From: Marinifilum sp. N1E240
Lineage (GTDB): Bacteria; Bacteroidota; Bacteroidia; Bacteroidales; Marinifilaceae
Direction: 5' to 3'
Length of the DNA stretch: 64,000 nucleotides
Assembly: GCF_009295825.1 (NCBI RefSeq)
Contig: NZ_WHKF01000002.1
Span: 949,130-1,013,129 of the forward strand
Shown: piece after piece, positions 1 through 64,000 of the stretch
Layout of the letters: the number at the start of each line of letters is the position of its first letter
Position numbering within the stretch: position 1 is the stretch's first letter
The notes under the pieces: model-generated
The model's input: the letters and a program-made list of their open reading frames with translations, nothing else
Databases searched by the model: none
Told to the model about the DNA's origin: nothing
Made by a program: the position numbers and the translations under genes

Positions 1-193
1 AGAACGTCTCCAGAAAACCTCTTATAATGGAAGCATTGCAGCCATTGCCCGTTACGAGGATGAACGCAAACAGCTCGAAAAAATGAATGTTGATGCAGTT
101 TACGACATCTATTCAGAAGCTGGATATGGTTTTGCAAATCACGTTTGCCATCAGATTGATATCGGATGTGAAGCCAGGAAGCCTTTGTGGTAG
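1..193 (+). CDS. C-terminal end of a cation:proton antiporter / TrkA-N type protein (partial)
   Basis: An open frame runs in from the left edge and ends at TAG 191-193, giving the last 63 residues of a longer protein. The tail contains SIAAIARYEDERKQLEKMN followed by a Val-Asp-Ala-Val segment and a GYGFANHV motif. From memory this resembles the C-terminal end of CPA2/KefB-like antiporters that carry a Rossmann TrkA-N domain, where a phrase like 'AVARYDDE...GVDAVFN' and 'GFAE' closes the nucleotide-binding domain. That assignment is inference from a short tail. The frame has normal codon use for the window and no breaks. A short hairpin (CCAAC/GTTGG, 278-291) lies 85 bases downstream and could end the transcript, but it lacks a T tract. 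Confidence 0.5.
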   Translation, partial: ERLQKTSYNGSIAAIARYEDERKQLEKMNVDAVYDIYSEAGYGFANHVCHQIDIGCEARKPLW

Positions 194-403
194 TATAGTA
201 GAAAAGTTGAAAAGTCAAAAGGTTAAAAAGTAGAATGGGAAATGGTAGATAAGCAAAAAGATGAATACTTTGGATCTCCAACTAAGGTTGGAATTCACAA
301 TAAAATTTCATGATATACTAACTTTTAGCTGATAACTGGTAGCTGAACACTTTTTTCTAATTATGACAAAAAAACACTGAAATTTAAATCCTACTGACAT
401 ACT

Positions 404-3425: not shown

Positions 3426-3433
3426 TTCCCTCA

Positions 3434-3490
3434 AAGGAAATGAAGTCTTCCTATTTGAACCGCCTAATAAGCTAATGACTTCTGTGAACT
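3434..3490 (+). promoter_or_regulatory. Fluoride riboswitch (crcB motif) aptamer
   Basis: The leader follows the fluoride aptamer layout. Stem 1 is GGAA (3436-3439)/TTCC (3448-3451) closing a loop that contains ATGAAGTC. Next come AACCGCC (3458-3464), a short loop and GCTAATGACTTC (3471-3482). The loop bases GAAGTC (3442-3447) pair perfectly with GACTTC (3477-3482), the diagnostic pseudoknot. The conserved blocks GATG, AACYGCC and GCTGATG are present with single changes (AATG, GCTAATG). Stem 2 is weak, with a C-A mismatch. The genes downstream (CLC-F antiporter, DUF190, enolase) are those expected for fluoride relief. Recognised by eye against the known consensus; no covariance model was run. 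Confidence 0.85.
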
Positions 3491-3523
3491 AAAAGTTAAT
3501 ACTCAAATTAATTTCACAGAAGT
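3478..3523 (+). promoter_or_regulatory. Riboswitch expression platform: hairpin competing with the aptamer
   Basis: ACTTCTGTGAA (3478-3488) pairs perfectly over 11 bp with TTCACAGAAGT (3513-3523), ending three bases before the ATG at 3527. Its left strand reuses ACTTC of the aptamer pseudoknot, so the two folds exclude each other. With fluoride bound the leader upstream of the start is free; without fluoride it is locked in the hairpin. No T tract follows, which points to control of translation rather than of termination (inference). Confidence 0.7.
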
Positions 3524-12081: not shown

Positions 12082-14307
12082 TTAAGCCACCGTATCGTAA
12101 CGAGAAACACGATGAACTCCTTTCAACCTTTTCAATTTCACAATCAAAGTATTCAAATGATCCGTATTAGAAACTACAACCGTTAAATGCCCTTCGAAAG
12201 TTCCTGCATTTGATTCTACCGAGATAGATCTCATTTGCACGCGTAAATCTTTGGTGATTACTTCTGAAATATTGGTAATCATTCCCAATTCATCGTCGCC
12301 TGTAATATGAAGAATTGCTTGGTAAGATGCAGCACCTTTTTCTGTCCAATTGGCTTTCACAACCCGGTAAGGATATCTGCTCTGCATTTCCTTGGCATTT
12401 GAACATCCCAAACGGTGAATTCGTATGCCTTTACCTATGGTCACAAAACCAAAAATATCATCACCAAAAATTGGATTGCAACATTTTGCAAGAGTATAAT
12501 CTACATTGGCAATGGTTTGATCTACAATTAAGACATCTTCGCCCTCACCTTCCACTTTTCTCTTGCTATAATCCGGCATTTCTTCCGGAGCAAGTACTTC
12601 TTCTTCCTTTTCTTCTCGAGTTAAAACCTCCTTAATTTCAGATAAATCATGAATTTCAGTGGCAATACCATAATACAAATCTACAGCCAATTTGTACTTG
12701 TACTCTGCCATTAACTTTCGCGTATTTTCATCGCAAAACTCAATCTTCCAATTCTTCATCCTTCGCTTAAGTGTCTCTTTTCCGAGATCAGCTTCCTTAA
12801 GCATTTCTTCTTTCATCGACTGGCGAATCTTGTTCTTCGCTTTGTTAGAAATTACAAAGTTCAACCAATCTGGTTTTGGCTTTTGAGAGTTGGAAGTGGT
12901 AATAGCAACCTGATCCCCATTTTTTAACACCTGACGAATGGAAACATTTTTTTGATTTACCGTTCCTCCAATACATTTCCCCCCTAAATCGGAGTGAATT
13001 GAATAGGCAAAATCGAGTAAGGTTGCACCGGAAGGCAGTTGTTTTAAATCACCTTTTGGTGTAAAAACATATATCTCTTTATTATATAGATCAGCTTTAA
13101 ACTTATCAATCAAATCAATTGAATTGCTTTCCTGACTTTCCAATACCTCACGAATATCCTGCAACCAATTGTCAAGTCCACCCTCTCCTTTACCACCTTT
13201 GTATTTCCAGTGCGCCGCGAATCCTTGCTCTGCAATCTTATTCATTCGCTTCGAACGAATCTGTACTTCTACCCAACGATTTTGAGGACCCAATACCGTT
13301 GTATGTAATGATTCATATCCATTTGATTTTGGTATTGTAATCCAATCTCTCAAGCGTTCTGGATTTGGGCGATACAAATCGCTTACTGCAGAGTAGACTT
13401 TCCAGCACTCCGATTTCTCTTTCTTTGCTGAAGCTTTTAAAATAATACGAATCGCGAAAATATCATAAACTTCCTCAAACTCCACCTGCTTTTTCTTCAT
13501 TTTATGAAGAATAGAAGCTATGGTTTTAGTTCGAGCCTTAATCTTATATTTTATTCCTTGCGAATCAAGTTCGTTTTTGATAGGATCAACAAAATCATGA
13601 ATGAACTGAGCACGCTGTTCTTCCGTATCCTTAAGTTTTTGAACAATCTCGAAATAAATCTCTGGTTTCAAATAACGCAAAGCCAAATCTTCCATATCAG
13701 ACTTCACATTATACATGCCCAAGCGGTGAGCCAAAGGAATGTAAAGAAATTCAATTTCTTTAGCCAAATCAATTTGTTCTTGCTTAGGCTTGTGCTCCAT
13801 ATTACGCAAATGGAATAAACGATCAGCTAAAATGATTAAAACCACTCGCACATCGTCTGCAAAGCTCAATAATAACTTTCTAAAATTTTCGGAATGCTGA
13901 GTTAATCCCTGATTGTAAATATCAGTTACCTTAACAAGACCAGTAATAATTTGTGCCACTTTAGAACCAAATAATTCGGTAACTTCATCAATATTGACAT
14001 GTTCTTTCTGAACGATATCATATAAAAGAGCACAAATAACTGATGTTCTCCCTAATCCTAATTCTTCAACAACTATTTGAGCTACAGAAAGTGAGCGGTA
14101 GATAGCAGGATCACCATTACTTCTTCTTTCCCCCTCATGATCTTGTAAGCTTAAATCAAAAGCTTTTCTTACCAATTTGATATCTGCTCTGGAAACAATG
14201 TTCCTACAGGTCTTAAGTAAGTGTTTATACCTATATAATATTTGCCTTCTTTCTTCTTCTCTATTGAATTCTGTCATAATTTTCTCACTTAAACAAGAAA
14301 TATTCAC
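12082..14307 (-). CDS. relA: RelA/SpoT-family (p)ppGpp synthetase, hydrolase site degenerate
   Basis: A 741-residue long RSH protein. Order: pseudo-HD domain (about 40-195), synthetase domain with VYDIFAIRII, RLRDWITIPKSNGYESLHTT and the catalytic EVQIRS, TGS domain (YVFTPKGDLKQLPSGATLLD), a cysteine/zinc region (LAKCCNPIFGDD) and a C-terminal ACT domain. In the HD domain the catalytic His-Asp pair is Tyr96-Asp97, the Glu-Asp pair is Gln100-Lys101, and the earlier THPVA histidine is replaced (YRSLSVA), so ppGpp hydrolysis is very unlikely. This is the E. coli RelA situation: a dedicated ribosome-linked synthetase, implying a separate SpoT/Rel hydrolase elsewhere. The ATG at 14277 (residue 11) is an equally good start. 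The gene is monocistronic. Confidence 0.93.
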   Translation of the reverse strand: MNISCLSEKIMTEFNREEERRQILYRYKHLLKTCRNIVSRADIKLVRKAFDLSLQDHEGERRSNGDPAIYRSLSVAQIVVEELGLGRTSVICALLYDIVQKEHVNIDEVTELFGSKVAQIITGLVKVTDIYNQGLTQHSENFRKLLLSFADDVRVVLIILADRLFHLRNMEHKPKQEQIDLAKEIEFLYIPLAHRLGMYNVKSDMEDLALRYLKPEIYFEIVQKLKDTEEQRAQFIHDFVDPIKNELDSQGIKYKIKARTKTIASILHKMKKKQVEFEEVYDIFAIRIILKASAKKEKSECWKVYSAVSDLYRPNPERLRDWITIPKSNGYESLHTTVLGPQNRWVEVQIRSKRMNKIAEQGFAAHWKYKGGKGEGGLDNWLQDIREVLESQESNSIDLIDKFKADLYNKEIYVFTPKGDLKQLPSGATLLDFAYSIHSDLGGKCIGGTVNQKNVSIRQVLKNGDQVAITTSNSQKPKPDWLNFVISNKAKNKIRQSMKEEMLKEADLGKETLKRRMKNWKIEFCDENTRKLMAEYKYKLAVDLYYGIATEIHDLSEIKEVLTREEKEEEVLAPEEMPDYSKRKVEGEGEDVLIVDQTIANVDYTLAKCCNPIFGDDIFGFVTIGKGIRIHRLGCSNAKEMQSRYPYRVVKANWTEKGAASYQAILHITGDDELGMITNISEVITKDLRVQMRSISVESNAGTFEGHLTVVVSNTDHLNTLIVKLKRLKGVHRVSRYDTVA

Positions 14308-14552
14308 ACATCGGCATTTTTACGAAAAATGTTATAAGCCCTGTCTTAAAATTAATCGACATAAAGCATGTCGTTTTTTTAGCTCACTAAAAGTATAAAA
14401 GCTATTAAATAATGACAAGTGGATTAATACTTTTTAACGTATTTAAAACATTATAGAATTTACAAAAAAAATAGCAGACATTCTAGTTTATCTCATTATC
14501 AATTCATTGCCATTTTATTCTGATAGGTATGCAAAAAACTGCACGGATTTGC

Positions 14553-14560
14553 TAAATTTG
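14553..14560 (+). promoter_or_regulatory. Putative promoter -7 box of hemD-hemL
   Basis: TAAATTTG fits TAnnTTTG and lies 27 bases before the hemD start. The rest of the 14308-14586 divergent gap is AT-rich and shows nothing else. Confidence 0.45.
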
Positions 14561-14586
14561 TTAGCTCAGGAAGCAAAAAATAGCGA

Positions 14587-15291
14587 ATGTACTCAACTGA
14601 TTCAAATCGTATACTTTTTACAAGAAACTTATCGGATGGTCATTATGATTTCGGTAATAAAATTGGACTTCAATTAAGCGATCATGCCTTTATTGATATA
14701 AAAATTAACACTCTCGGGCAAAGAGAAATTGAATTACTTGAATCAGAATCGAAAGCCGAATGGATATTTACAAGTCGGAATGCAGTAAAGAGTCTTGCAC
14801 CGATTCTATCTAAATTAGTTCTTGATGAGAACCACAAGGTTTATGCAGTTGGAAAAAAAACAGCAGAAGAACTATCCAAAATTGGTTTGCAAGCCATAGT
14901 TCCATCAACTCATAATGCAAGGGCTTTGGTTGAATTGTTAGAGAAAAACAAAGCGGAAAGCTACATTTATTTCTCAGGTAATATTCGGAAAAATACGATC
15001 GTTAATTTCTTTACAGAAAATGATTTAACCTATGAAGAAATTGAGTGCTACAAAACTAGCTTAATTCAACCTGAAATTGATGTTGATAATTTTGATGCCA
15101 TTTGCTTTTGCAGTCCAAGTGCAATTGTTAGTTTTTTTAAAAAATACAAGCTTAAAAGTCCTGTTCCATGCATTGCCATTGGCAATTCATCCGCAGTTAA
15201 GCTATTAGATTATACCGAGCATGTCGTAATGTCTGAAAAGGCTAACATCTACTCCATGCTTGAAATTTGTAATGAATATTTAAACTCATAA
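14587..15291 (+). CDS. hemD: Uroporphyrinogen-III synthase
   Basis: A 234-residue cytosolic enzyme that closes and inverts ring D of hydroxymethylbilane. The family is weakly conserved, but the landmarks are present: a starting strand RILFTRNL, the AEWIFTSRNAVKSLAP segment, KVYAVGKKTAEELSKIGL, the second-domain start YIYFSGNIRKNTIVNF, FDAICFCSPSAIVSFFKKY and CIAIGNSSAVKL. It sits 11 bases upstream of hemL, so the two are probably co-transcribed, while the other hem genes form a separate minus-strand block at 21431-25894. This split of the pathway supports the assignment. Confidence 0.88.
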   Translation: MYSTDSNRILFTRNLSDGHYDFGNKIGLQLSDHAFIDIKINTLGQREIELLESESKAEWIFTSRNAVKSLAPILSKLVLDENHKVYAVGKKTAEELSKIGLQAIVPSTHNARALVELLEKNKAESYIYFSGNIRKNTIVNFFTENDLTYEEIECYKTSLIQPEIDVDNFDAICFCSPSAIVSFFKKYKLKSPVPCIAIGNSSAVKLLDYTEHVVMSEKANIYSMLEICNEYLNS

Positions 15292-60471: not shown

Positions 60472-60777
60472 GTGCTTATTCCTGGTGTAGAAAATCAACT
60501 ATCAGAAAACTGGGAAGACATTTTCGGTGCCGGAAACTCATCACCAGAAAACTGGAGAGGCATTTTCGGTGCCGGAAACCCACCATCAGAAAACTGGGAA
60601 GGCATTTTCGGGACCGGAAATACATCACCAGAAAACTGGGAGACCATTTTCAGTGCCGGAAACACTTCGCAGGAAAATACGAAAGGTATTTTCGATGTCG
60701 GAAACACATCGCGGGAAAATTCAAAGAGTACCTTCAGAGCTTTATTGGCAGGGCTTACAGTCGTTTTCTGTATATAA
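60472..60777 (+). CDS. Possible 14-residue-repeat protein (ENWExIFGAGNTSP units)
   Basis: A 101-codon frame from a GTG start, built mostly of five to six 14-residue units of the form ENWE.IFGAGNTSP, ending in a hydrophobic tail LLAGLTVVFCI. All three forward frames are open across the repeat, but changes between copies favour this one: GGT/GGG, AAC/AAT, GAA/GAG, TCA/TCG and GGC/GGT are silent here. The same frame upstream has an ATG at 60415 followed by a TAA at 60466, and downstream it continues after its stop for another 52 codons, so the present gene may be a decayed piece of a longer one. Function unknown. Confidence 0.35.
   Translation: MLIPGVENQLSENWEDIFGAGNSSPENWRGIFGAGNPPSENWEGIFGTGNTSPENWETIFSAGNTSQENTKGIFDVGNTSRENSKSTFRALLAGLTVVFCI
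60505..60745 (+). repeat. 42-bp tandem repeat, about 5.7 copies
   Basis: Units start at 60505, 60547, 60589, 60631, 60673 and (partial) 60715. The core ATTTTCGGTGCCGGAAAC is well kept in the first four copies and diverges in the last two. It is GC-richer than its surroundings. Confidence 0.9.
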
Positions 60778-61258: not shown

Positions 61259-62365
61259 ATGGGCACACAAATAAAACTCTCATCGGATCATCATAGAGGC
61301 AAGAAAGTTGTTTTGTTGCAGTTTGAGTACAATTCTCAAATTGTAAACTTGTTAAAGCAGCATTTTCCTGTCCGTTGGAGTCAAACAAAAAAATGCTGGT
61401 GGATTGCCAGACGGGAGTTTGATTTTAAAATGTTTAAACAAGTATTTGCCGAATATGATATAATAGCAATTGCTCATGAACCATTAAGAATTCAGAAGCA
61501 AAACAAGAAACTAAATAAACAAATAAGCTTACCCAAAGGCTATTTGGAGAAATTAGAAAGACTTAGATATAGCGAGAGTACTATAAGAACTTATTCGAAA
61601 TACATGAGAGATTTTTGTACTGTATTTAAGGATGCTAATCTTTCAGAAATAGGTATTGACGAAATTAATGAATACTTACATCATCAGGTACAAAATGACA
61701 TTATTTCGATAAGCCAACAAAACCAATTGATTAATGCAATTAAGTTTTATTACGAAAAAGTACTTGGAAAAAGCAAAGAATACTATAATTTAGAAAGACC
61801 TCGAACACAAAAACAATTACCTAAAGTTCTTAGTAAAAAAGAAGTTATTTCAATAATTAAACAATGTAGGAACATTAAGCACAGGTGTATTTTATCATTA
61901 ATTTATTCTGCAGGTCTCAGACGTAAAGAACTTATTAATCTGGAGATTACTGATATAATTTCTGAACGCAATCAGATAAGAATATACCAAGCTAAAGGTA
62001 ATAAGGACCGTTACTCCATTTTGTCACCTCATTTACTTATTGAACTCCGTGAATATTACAAAAAATACAAGCCTGAAAAATGGCTATTTGAAGGTCGCGA
62101 ACCAGCCTCACAATATAGTGCAACCAGCATACGTAATATTTTGAATTACGCTAGTCAAAAAGCAAATATAAAGAGAAGAATAACTCCGCACATGTTACGA
62201 CATTCTTTTGCAACACACTTGCTTGAACAAGGTGTTGACTTAAGATATATTCAGGTACTTTTAGGACATAGTTCTTCAAAAACAACCGAAATTTATACAC
62301 ACGTTTCTAATCAGGAAATTCGTAAAATTGTAAACCCACTTGATGAACTATGGAATACGACTTAA
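61259..62365 (+). CDS. Tyrosine recombinase, probable integron-type cassette integrase
   Basis: A 368-residue site-specific recombinase. Residues 1-95 are an extra N-terminal domain (RGKKVVLLQFEYN, VRWSQTKKCWWIARRE) seen on some Bacteroidota recombinases. A core-binding SAM-like domain follows (YLEKLERLRYSESTIRTYSK). The catalytic domain is complete: R221 in SAGLRRKELI, K246 in QAKGNKDR, H311/R314 in PHMLRHSFATHLLEQG, H337 in VLLGHSSSKTTEIYTHV and nucleophile Y346. The distance R221-H311 (90) is XerD-like and shorter than in classical IntI, so the IntI-specific insertion is missing. It is followed directly by an attI-like junction and two cassettes with attC-like sites, in the same orientation, which makes it the likely cassette integrase. 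Confidence 0.88.
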   Translation: MGTQIKLSSDHHRGKKVVLLQFEYNSQIVNLLKQHFPVRWSQTKKCWWIARREFDFKMFKQVFAEYDIIAIAHEPLRIQKQNKKLNKQISLPKGYLEKLERLRYSESTIRTYSKYMRDFCTVFKDANLSEIGIDEINEYLHHQVQNDIISISQQNQLINAIKFYYEKVLGKSKEYYNLERPRTQKQLPKVLSKKEVISIIKQCRNIKHRCILSLIYSAGLRRKELINLEITDIISERNQIRIYQAKGNKDRYSILSPHLLIELREYYKKYKPEKWLFEGREPASQYSATSIRNILNYASQKANIKRRITPHMLRHSFATHLLEQGVDLRYIQVLLGHSSSKTTEIYTHVSNQEIRKIVNPLDELWNTT

Positions 62366-62370
62366 AATAA

Positions 62371-62415
62371 AAAAGTGCACAATATTGACCTATATGGTAT
62401 GTATTGTGCACTTTT
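62371..62415 (+). terminator. 14-bp hairpin after the integrase gene
   Basis: AAAAGTGCACAATA (62371-62384) pairs perfectly with TATTGTGCACTTTT (62402-62415), flanked by A and T runs. It probably terminates integrase transcription. GTGCAC occurs here twice and again at 62449-62454, so part of it may also be integrase-binding DNA. Confidence 0.75.
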
Positions 62416-62438
62416 AATAACGATATATTAAAAATATA

Positions 62439-62473
62439 TGCACTTATAGTGCACATACTAACAAGTTATGTAC
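62439..62473 (+). other. attI-like recombination point
   Basis: TGCAC-TTATA-GTGCA (62439-62453) is followed by CATACTAACAAG and TTATGTAC. TAAC-AA-GTTA (62459-62468) is an inverted core like the simple sites of integron attI, and the predicted crossover is G|TT at 62465/62466. The sequence resembles the end of attI1 (AAACAAAG|TTAGG) in layout. The first cassette starts here. Confidence 0.55.
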
Positions 62474-62481
62474 AATTAAAG

Positions 62482-62976
62482 CTCTTTATGAAGAGATAAA
62501 ACCCTCTTTATTTACGGCTGAGATGATACAAAAATGGAAAGTTCCTTAAGGCGTAAAAGGACAAGAAAGGCAATGGAAGGCATTGTTCAAGTCTTATGCG
62601 GTGCTACCGTGAAAGATCGCTCTTTCAAACGACGAGTATCGTTAACTAAGACTTGGATAAGTTACTGTTTTTCAGGATCAATGTCAAGAGTAGAATGAAA
62701 TTCGACTTTGATAAACAGTTACTTACACTTGTTCTTTTAAGAAAGGAACTTGGTGTATTGAGTTCTTGTTTTGTATTAAGGACTCAGCCATTTCCAGTTT
62801 GATATGACGCTGCCTTAGACAAATCTAAAGCGCATAAGATCAAACTAAATCAAGGTGTTTAGAAAGGAATAAAGAGTTTAACAGTGCCTTTTATCTGTTT
62901 TAGAGGGGGAATGAAATTCCTAAAACAGACCTGTTTTTAAGAGCCTGATTCAGGAGGTGTGCAACAAATAGGCTTT
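62482..62976 (+). ncRNA. Candidate large structured RNA filling cassette 1
   Basis: The cassette between 62466 and 62995 has no convincing protein frame but is packed with helices. CTCTT/AAGAG (62482/62491) and CAATG/CATTG (62571/62581) are short. A 9-bp stem CAAGTCTTA/TAAGACTTG (62588/62647) encloses three hairpins (62599-62609, 62611-62626, 62628-62643). AAGTTACTGTTT/AAACAGTTACTT (62659/62713, one mismatch) has an inner ATCAA-GTC/GAC-TTGAT stem. Others are TGAGTTCTT/AAGGACTCA (62759/62778), AGTTTGAT+ATG+CGC+TTAGA with their complements (62796-62846), and TCTGTTTTA+GGAAT with theirs (62894-62929). The last is AGCCT/AGGCT (62942/62970). No known RNA family was recognised. Confidence 0.55.
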
Positions 62977-62986
62977 AAAAATAAAA

Positions 62987-63118
62987 GTACATAACAAGAG
63001 CTAAATTTTATTGGGGTTAAAGTACTTAATCATGCTTTCTATCTCTTAGAAAACTATAAATGAGAGATAGAAAAATGGTTTTAATCCCCAACAAAACTTA
63101 GCAATAACCGTTACCACC
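62987..63118 (+). other. attC-like site of cassette 1
   Basis: The site opens with GTACATAAC (62987-62995), the exact reverse complement of GTTATGTAC at the cassette start (62465-62473). A long imperfect hairpin follows: 63000-63016 (GCTAA...GGGG) pairs 15 of 17 with 63086-63102 (CCCC...TTAGC), then TTAAA/TTTAA with one extrahelical T (63085), and TTTCTATCTC/GAGATAGAAA (63036-63045/63064-63073). It closes with AACCG|TTACCACC (63106-63118), where the next cassette starts. The length (about 130) and layout R''-L''-L'-R' are those of integron attC sites. Confidence 0.75.
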
Positions 63119-63130
63119 AATTTAGGAGAA

Positions 63131-63718
63131 ATGAACTATTTTAAAATACAACCTGATAATCTTACGAACAAAGAAAAGAAGGTAACCTATTTTCTTTTAA
63201 TTATATGCTTGATAATAGCTGTTGTATTCTTCGGAATTATTAAAAAAAATCACAACTATGAATCGGCTATTAGAAAAGGAAAAGATTTTATTAGTACTGA
63301 ATGTGAAATTATAGGTTATGGAGCGAAATTTAATAGTTCAATTTTTAAATATAATTATCGTGGTGAAAAATATAATTCTAGACAACACAATACGGACGAC
63401 TTACAAATTGGAGAAAAATATCGGGGACGACTTAATAAGAATGAACCAGAAGTGGCTATTATGCTATTGAATGAACCTGTAATTGACACATCTAAATACA
63501 AAAAAACAATTGCGCGAATTAAGAAAATAGAACCTAAGAAATATGATCTTAATTTGGTAACTTATCTTTATGAAATTAACAATCAAAAGTATTCTAGAAC
63601 AGAATTCATGAATAAGTTTTTCAAATGGAAAAAAGGTGAAAATGTTTCAATACTTTATAAAATAAATAATCCAAAAATTTCATACATAGAAAAGGAAACA
63701 GGTGGTAACAAAAGCTAA
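63131..63718 (+). CDS. Cassette-encoded single-pass membrane protein, unknown function
   Basis: A 195-residue protein preceded by a clear Shine-Dalgarno-like GGAG at 63124-63127, unusual in this window. One membrane helix lies at residues 20-42 (VTYFLLIICLIIAVVFFGII). The exported part has two similar halves of a small beta domain (ECEIIGYGAKFNSSIFKYNY with GEKYRGRLNKNEPEVAIMLL, and IARIKKIEPKKYDLNLVTYL with GENVSILYKINNPKISYIEK), resembling DUF3592-type proteins. It is more AT-rich than chromosomal genes. The gene fills cassette 2, starts 21 bases after the cassette boundary and takes its last residues (GGNKS) and stop codon from the attC-like site, as is common for integron cassettes. No family identified. 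Confidence 0.75.
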   Translation: MNYFKIQPDNLTNKEKKVTYFLLIICLIIAVVFFGIIKKNHNYESAIRKGKDFISTECEIIGYGAKFNSSIFKYNYRGEKYNSRQHNTDDLQIGEKYRGRLNKNEPEVAIMLLNEPVIDTSKYKKTIARIKKIEPKKYDLNLVTYLYEINNQKYSRTEFMNKFFKWKKGENVSILYKINNPKISYIEKETGGNKS

Positions 63719-63832
63719 ATTTCAAGGGCGGTGACGCTCAACTTGATAATAAAACAAAACTTTAAACGGTAGCGGCTTTGATAAGGCGGTAGTTTCAAAT
63801 CGCCCTCATAATTTAGCCAAACCGTCAGACTG
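63701..63832 (+). other. attC-like site of cassette 2 (right end possibly interrupted)
   Basis: GGTGGTAAC (63701-63709) is the exact reverse complement of GTTACCACC (63110-63118), the start of the same cassette. 63714-63730 (GCTAAATT...AGGGCG) pairs 14 of 17 with 63801-63817 (CGCCCT...AATTTAGC). The right end reads AAACCG|TCAGACTG instead of the expected G|TT, and just there an IS1182-type element seems to begin. It shares TAACAA-[AG]-AGCTAAATTT with the first site. Confidence 0.65.
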
Positions 63833-63910: not shown

Positions 63911-64000
63911 ATGAGATTTATACAAGGACAAGACAGAACACAAACTCATCTTTTTCCCATCTCATTAGACCAATCAATTGCTAAAGACAATGAAGTTCGT
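63911..64000 (+). mobile_element. IS1182-family transposase, N-terminal part (runs off the edge)
   Basis: From ATG 63911 the frame reads MRFIQGQDRTQTHLFPISLD then QSIAKDNEVR to the window end. This is the opening typical of IS1182-family DDE transposases ('..FI.G.DR.Q..LFP.SLDd.I..dN.VR.'). The left end of the element should lie upstream; TGTCTAAAAACC (63831-63842) is the best candidate for the terminal inverted repeat, which would put the insertion at or next to the right end of the second attC-like site. Completeness cannot be judged here. Confidence 0.75.

Follow-up and report, generated by a model that had tools for sequence, protein, structure and literature searches.

An integrase family without the IntI-specific domain adjoins integron-type cassette arrays in Marinifilum sp. 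N1E240 and its relatives

Can a tyrosine recombinase that lacks the defining domain of integron integrases stand at the head of an integron-type cassette array? The question is raised by the right-hand end of a 64,000-nucleotide stretch of the Marinifilum sp. N1E240 genome (contig NZ_WHKF01000002.1, positions 949,130 to 1,013,129 of the forward strand; hereafter the window), the end at which the contig itself, G000:C21 in our numbering, finishes at window position 64000. There a tyrosine recombinase gene is followed by an attI-like site, two cassettes with attC sites and a truncated insertion sequence (IS) (Table 1). Canonical integrons, whether mobile (classes 1-3) or chromosomal with IntI, share this plan: an integrase gene and then attI, single-gene co-oriented cassettes, attC sites composed of R'', L'', L' and R', and insertion at G|TT, the bar marking the crossover. 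We consider it highly probable that the locus is an integron-type cassette platform, in which an integrase without the IntI domain is expected to move circular cassettes in and out at G|TT via a folded single strand of attC.

The evidence begins with the cassette ends. The start of cassette 1, GTTATGTAC (62465-62473), is the reverse complement of the left end of attC1, GTACATAAC (62987-62995), and the start of cassette 2, GTTACCACC (63110-63118), is that of the left end of attC2, GGTGGTAAC (63701-63709); direct reading thus bore out, letter for letter, the matching ends that the original prediction had described for both cassettes. The left-arm core that it proposed as common to attC1 and attC2 is also present, as AACAA[AG]AGCTAAATTT. 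One detail needs correcting: attC2 lacks a complete right end, the IS beginning at 63826 inside its G|TT. For a test against chance, attC starts and ends were set by conserved motifs, independently of the rule, in 18 stretches from Marinifilaceae-type genomes (the source genome, G011, G034, G027 and two Marinifilum records). All five variable bases agreed with the cassette's own attC in 12 of 20 motif-defined cassettes, compared with 4 of 380 crossed pairs, and 0 of 20000 permutations reached 12 own matches. The eight non-matching cases include motif hits in unrelated DNA, or an intervening cassette with a different attC type. In the array of G011, a complete genome, the rule was kept from cassette to cassette, even across two IS insertions. 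The same held elsewhere in the source genome, in relatives resembling Labilibaculum, and next to integrase homologues of Rufibacter, Pontibacter, Algoriphagus and Draconibacterium. The further sites that were expected in the genome and in relatives are present in both. Two rule-obeying cassettes (L017 ~120-230, reverse strand, and L013 ~1990) are closed by very short attC-like ends (AACAAAAGTAACCGTT, 16 bp), perhaps attC deletions in which the hairpin was lost.

A search of the genome with an attC covariance model had been proposed as a further check. RNAalifold returned zero consensus pairs on the Marinifilaceae attC set, and the resulting model, R1, is therefore sequence-only; it found 16 sites at E < 1e-5 in the source genome, of which 12 had served to build it and four were new. 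By blastn, 11 sites related to attC2 were found in the same genome.

Cassette 1 provides a second line of evidence. Its DNA was matched in three of 58 other relatives searched, in one of them (G040) by a mere 40 bp. In G034, which belongs to another genus and whose integrase is 54% identical to that of the window, an alignment of 648 bp at 98.9% identity spans exactly 62465 to 63112, its borders being the two predicted crossover points, and the flanking sequences differ from the window. G034 carries three copies, of which two are at 87-88%, and G016 carries three partial copies at contig ends; on reading, an attC right end stands before five of these six copies and an attI-like palindrome before the sixth (L203). 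A collection of phages searched with cassette 1 gave zero matches. To judge from these sequence comparisons, cassette 1 has passed as a single unit from one genome to another. Genomes also differ in the cassettes that they carry, and the perfect conservation that had been named as contrary to the integron reading was not seen. Could the matching ends nevertheless be coincidental? The window array is short and by itself just suggestive, one of 60 shuffles scoring equally high, but the excess of own over crossed matches, the rule-obeying chains beside homologous integrases and, above all, the near-identical cassette 1 of another genus, which has precisely these borders, show that they are not due to chance, an explanation to which we give next to no credence.

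We then asked how generally such chains accompany the integrase family. Regions beside the integrases were scanned with the first cassette start permitted solely 30-200 bp past the integrase, using 60 dinucleotide shuffles per region as controls; of 84 input regions, 25 fell short of 600 bp at contig ends, and of the other 59 one did not adjoin an integrase, leaving 58 to be scored. Unanchored scans of long chromosomal stretches had been rejected, and all counts use the anchored scan alone, because the former yielded noise chains on both strands. G|TT chains equalled by at most one of 60 shuffles were found in 27 of the 58 regions (by none in 18 of these), against a chance expectation at this level of about two regions. 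The chains comprised 13 cassettes in Rufibacter, 6 in Algoriphagus, 5 in Marinilabiliaceae A049, and 5 and 6 in Pontibacter.

The integrase itself has an extra N-terminal domain (residues ~1-70), a SAM-like core-binding domain (96-171) and a catalytic domain (190-352), and no IntI-specific domain. Its alignment with the NCBI integron-integrase model fell into two pieces, 59 model positions being bridged by 18 residues, and IntI4 (2a3v) likewise gave a two-piece match. The protein lies below the cut-off of TIGR02249, and no IntI above that cut-off was found in the source genome. Among 108 aligned homologue rows, in which the window protein is counted twice, the IntI-specific region measured 23-33 residues in every row, compared with 55-68 in 22 IntI including IntI1 and IntI2, and 32 and 34 in two Xer-like proteins of the source genome; the IntI-specific domain of ~41 residues is absent in all 108. 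A FastTree tree of 132 rows placed the 22 IntI in one clade with support 1.0 and without any other row. The core clade of the family, 100 of the homologue rows, had a support of 0.343, and the order among IntI, Xer and the family is thus loose; because this deep order lacks support, the tree leaves an origin independent of IntI unsupported. On its domains and alignments, the integrase is not an IntI. The original prediction of an integron therefore holds for the attI-like point, the attC hairpins, the G|TT borders and cassette exchange, while the system is not a classical integron because its integrase lacks the IntI-defining domain. It differs from canonical integrons in the absence of this domain, in a position outside the IntI clade, in the frequent extra N-terminal domain, and in the several scattered attI-like sites per genome described below.

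The family is widespread. With a family profile at E <= 1e-90, integrases of this kind were detected in 167 of the 395 class genomes sampled (the class being taken as Bacteroidia, which we infer from the named relatives), so that the rarity of integrons outside Proteobacteria assumed in the original prediction does not apply to this part of the tree. The canonical IntI model scored above the cut-off in 1 of the 395 class genomes and in 105 of 395 genomes of a whole-phylum sample; the single hit in the class lies at G095:C40:3592-4530 (421.9 bits). These figures bear on the idea that the cassettes were built by a canonical IntI, elsewhere or since lost, and that the adjoining recombinase is a bystander. 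Such a scenario would fit a recombinase without the IntI domain and a class sample in which one genome does hold canonical IntI, but neither that frequency, nor the lack of IntI in the source genome, nor the position of arrays directly downstream of these integrases, as in 27 of the 58 scored regions and 12 of the 15 gut-type loci (see below), agrees with it, and we regard it as very improbable.

We next considered whether the sites are likely to act in folded form. The attC1 hairpin had z-scores of -5.0 and -5.2 on the two strands, respectively, relative to shuffled DNA. Among 20 attC sites of Rufibacter and Pontibacter, 9 of 12 stem pairs showed compensatory changes, with both sides altered and the pair kept; support was weaker in the Marinifilaceae attC set, whose covariation score was 0.169, which 4 of 500 shuffles reached. 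Among cassettes the attC left arm varies, AAC excepted. The attI-like site begins, by sequence alone, 10 bp past the integrase stop, contains an inverted repeat GTGCACAATA/TATTGTGCAC at 62375-62411 and a second, TGCACTTATAGTGCA, at 62439-62453, and has a fold z-score of -6.6.

XerA, XerC and XerD resolve chromosome dimers at dif. Proteins of this type are the closest solved relatives of the integrase by sequence (4a8e, E 4.4e-38), but the integrase family adjoins cassette arrays; the NF040815 model was also matched, just above its cut-off. The sites might then be recombined as double strands, as by Xer at dif, the hairpins having little weight. The Xer-like protein without the patch that IntI applies to folded attC, together with the dif-like inverted repeats of the attI-like site, would suit this alternative; the covarying stems of the Rufibacter and Pontibacter set, the attC1 z-score near -5 and a left arm that changes with each cassette do not, and we judge it improbable. 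We favour action on a folded single strand, in which the N-terminal domain may substitute for the absent IntI patch. This domain is filled in 88 of the 108 rows, some of the other 20 being fragments, and its predicted secondary structure is beta-beta-alpha-beta-beta-alpha. No Pfam family matched it above the cut-off, and a fold search gave XPB, HARP and CASTOR1 as nearest, all weak and none confident, HARP having been guessed beforehand. In the available text of PMC4792948, CTXphi-type phages use the host XerCD; the likeness to the window system would be a patch-less Xer-type recombinase on a folded single strand, as predicted here, and the difference is that the phage borrows host XerCD, whereas here a dedicated integrase gene lies beside tandem cassettes (PMC4792948).

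Besides the shortness of the window array, several points weigh against an integron-type platform run by this integrase. Marinifilaceae attC pairs with a double change were not above shuffles (177 of 500), and a control slid by +1 gave 7 double-change pairs versus 4. In the chain scan, which permitted a first cassette start only in the narrow interval given above, 31 of 58 regions did not reach the level set, although 10 of these passed once an A|TT core was used. Of the 108 rows, 20 have no N-terminal domain, and cassettes adjoin some of these as well (L095, L113). Finally, recombination by the integrase, the choice of strand and the service of remote sites are deduced rather than seen.

The last of these concerns the attI-like sites outside the locus. 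Six more copies were found in the source genome, none with an integrase found alongside, while G011 has four attI-like sites, each with a cassette next, three of the four being without an integrase found alongside; copies were present in five of nine relatives searched. We examined 13 dispersed sites in five genomes, further hits outside this set being three in G004 and one in G022. The first cassette matched its own attC at nine of the 13 by script and at a tenth (C61) by eye; in the exceptions, G008 gave no match, and for G020 C7 and G022 C44 no start was found by script. Upstream of 12 dispersed sites, no integrase remnant was found within up to 2.5 kb. A TAnnTTTG box, which we take to be the Bacteroidetes promoter element, was present in the 75 nt preceding 8 of 12 dispersed sites (the integrase-linked site excluded) versus 4.4% of random stretches, the box having been noticed first and counted later. 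We propose that the dispersed sites are extra expression platforms, which the one integrase would serve in trans and at which a Bacteroidetes-type promoter would drive the cassettes. That they are instead dead relics of duplication or IS activity, with only the integrase-adjacent site live, is a less likely but serious alternative: several copies are partial (C3, C61) and IS elements are common at attC, but the cassettes matching their own attC, the clean upstream sequence at 12 sites and the promoter-like boxes are not what relics would lead one to expect.

The IS elements appear to favour attC. The transposase is of the DDE type (DUF772/DDE_Tnp_1_6, in the G011 copy), and in G011 the element was read at two places inside an attC right end, with CCGT on either side. 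On five contigs of the source genome, including that of the window (L056, L013, L015, L025 and L026 are listed), attC-like ends are followed by the left end of this IS, suggesting an attC-targeting element; since it sits at attC ends, the breaks of these five contigs would be explained. Group IIC-attC introns occur in other integrons. On reading, a group II intron-like sequence with a YADD-type reverse transcriptase was noticed within an attC-like right end of Maribellus sediminis (L094 ~12600-15000), and a group II intron-like 3' end at the start of contig C15 of the source genome (L013 1-137).

Downstream of the integrase homologues of Bacteroides, Phocaeicola, Parabacteroides and relatives lie short genes with hairpin spacers. 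An A|TT core was picked post hoc, after locus L177, and the scan was rerun: 12 of 15 gut-type loci scored above all 60 shuffles (the misses being L102, L119 and L153), and 10 of these 12 belong to the 31 regions failing the G|TT scan. Locus L177, by annotation and sequence, shows a tyrosine recombinase, co-oriented short immunity genes, among them annotated type VI secretion system (T6SS) immunity and SMI1/KNR4 genes, and a conserved intergenic motif; in the window itself no immunity gene was recognised. The rAID (recombinase-associated acquired interbacterial defence) arrays of gut Bacteroidales are described in the same terms, as a tyrosine recombinase, co-oriented short immunity genes and conserved intergenic motifs, and the available text of that description does not contain the word "integron" (PMC12247911). 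By this likeness, arrays of the rAID type appear to be cassette arrays belonging to the present integrase family. They would share with the window system a homologous recombinase, short co-oriented genes and conserved spacers under the same cassette rule, and differ in the A|TT core in place of G|TT, in spacers of ~40-45 bp between R'' and R', and in their immunity-gene cargo.

Table 1. Features at the right-hand end of the window.
Feature	Position	Strand	Basis
Tyrosine recombinase, 368 amino acids, intact open reading frame (ORF)	61259-62365	+	ORF list, Pfam/NCBIfam matches, AlphaFold model
attI-like site, 93 bp, crossover CAAG|TT with G at 62465	62375-62467	+	sequence
Cassette 1, without long ORF, strongly structured as RNA, attC1 at its end	62465-63112	+	near-identical copy in another genus; RNA fold
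attC1 with R'' and R' ends	62987-63118	+	R'' GTACATAAC complementary to cassette start; hairpin z-score
Cassette 2	63110-63825	+	GTTACCACC/GGTGGTAAC match, Pfam
Cassette 2 ORF, 195 amino acids; DUF3592 match below cut-off	63131-63718	+	Pfam
attC2, right end broken by IS	63701-63825	+	sequence
IS left end and first 30 transposase codons (from 63911), cut by contig end	63826-64000	+	left end shared by 5 contigs, each time after an attC-like end; transposase domains in G011 copy

The cargo of cassette 1 is unusual in that its sequence (62465-62992) contains no ORF of more than 54 amino acids. The RNA fold of 62470-62990 had a z-score of -5.7, with 0 of 100 shuffles as strong, and the four full copies differ for the most part at loop positions, with 2 of the 157 predicted pairs altered on both sides. 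An Rfam search of the integrase and cassette locus gave no family above the gathering score, the matches to cassette 1 being weak and unlikely, with no family that fits. The cargo of cassette 1 may be a structured RNA of a new type. Elsewhere in the window, a 42-bp unit is repeated in tandem five times (77% match) at 60501-60710, just 5' of the integrase, and a fluoride riboswitch (Rfam RF01734, 42.4 bits) lies at 3427-3491.

The IntI-specific domain is the criterion by which integron integrases are recognised, as in IntegronFinder (PMC9668308, available text), and a patch-less family would for that reason escape integron surveys. For Bacteroidetes, the available text of PMC9024848 describes earlier finds of just lone integrases and, later, a single complete integron from Salinibacter ruber. 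Our literature searches, within the text available to them, found no report of this integrase type together with cassettes. As a tentative model, which we hold to be somewhat more likely wrong than right, Bacteroidia may possess an integron kind of their own, which arose separately from IntI out of a XerA-like recombinase and in which folded attC would be read without the patch, with the help of a structure-reading N-terminal domain, one integrase would serve several promoter-bearing attI platforms, and the T6SS-immunity arrays of gut species would form the gut branch. If the integron-type reading is true, cassette capture would be a permanent trait in a large part of the class, including gut species with defence-gene cassettes; attC recombination would be possible without the IntI patch, and the origin of integrons could be tested by comparing the two lineages.

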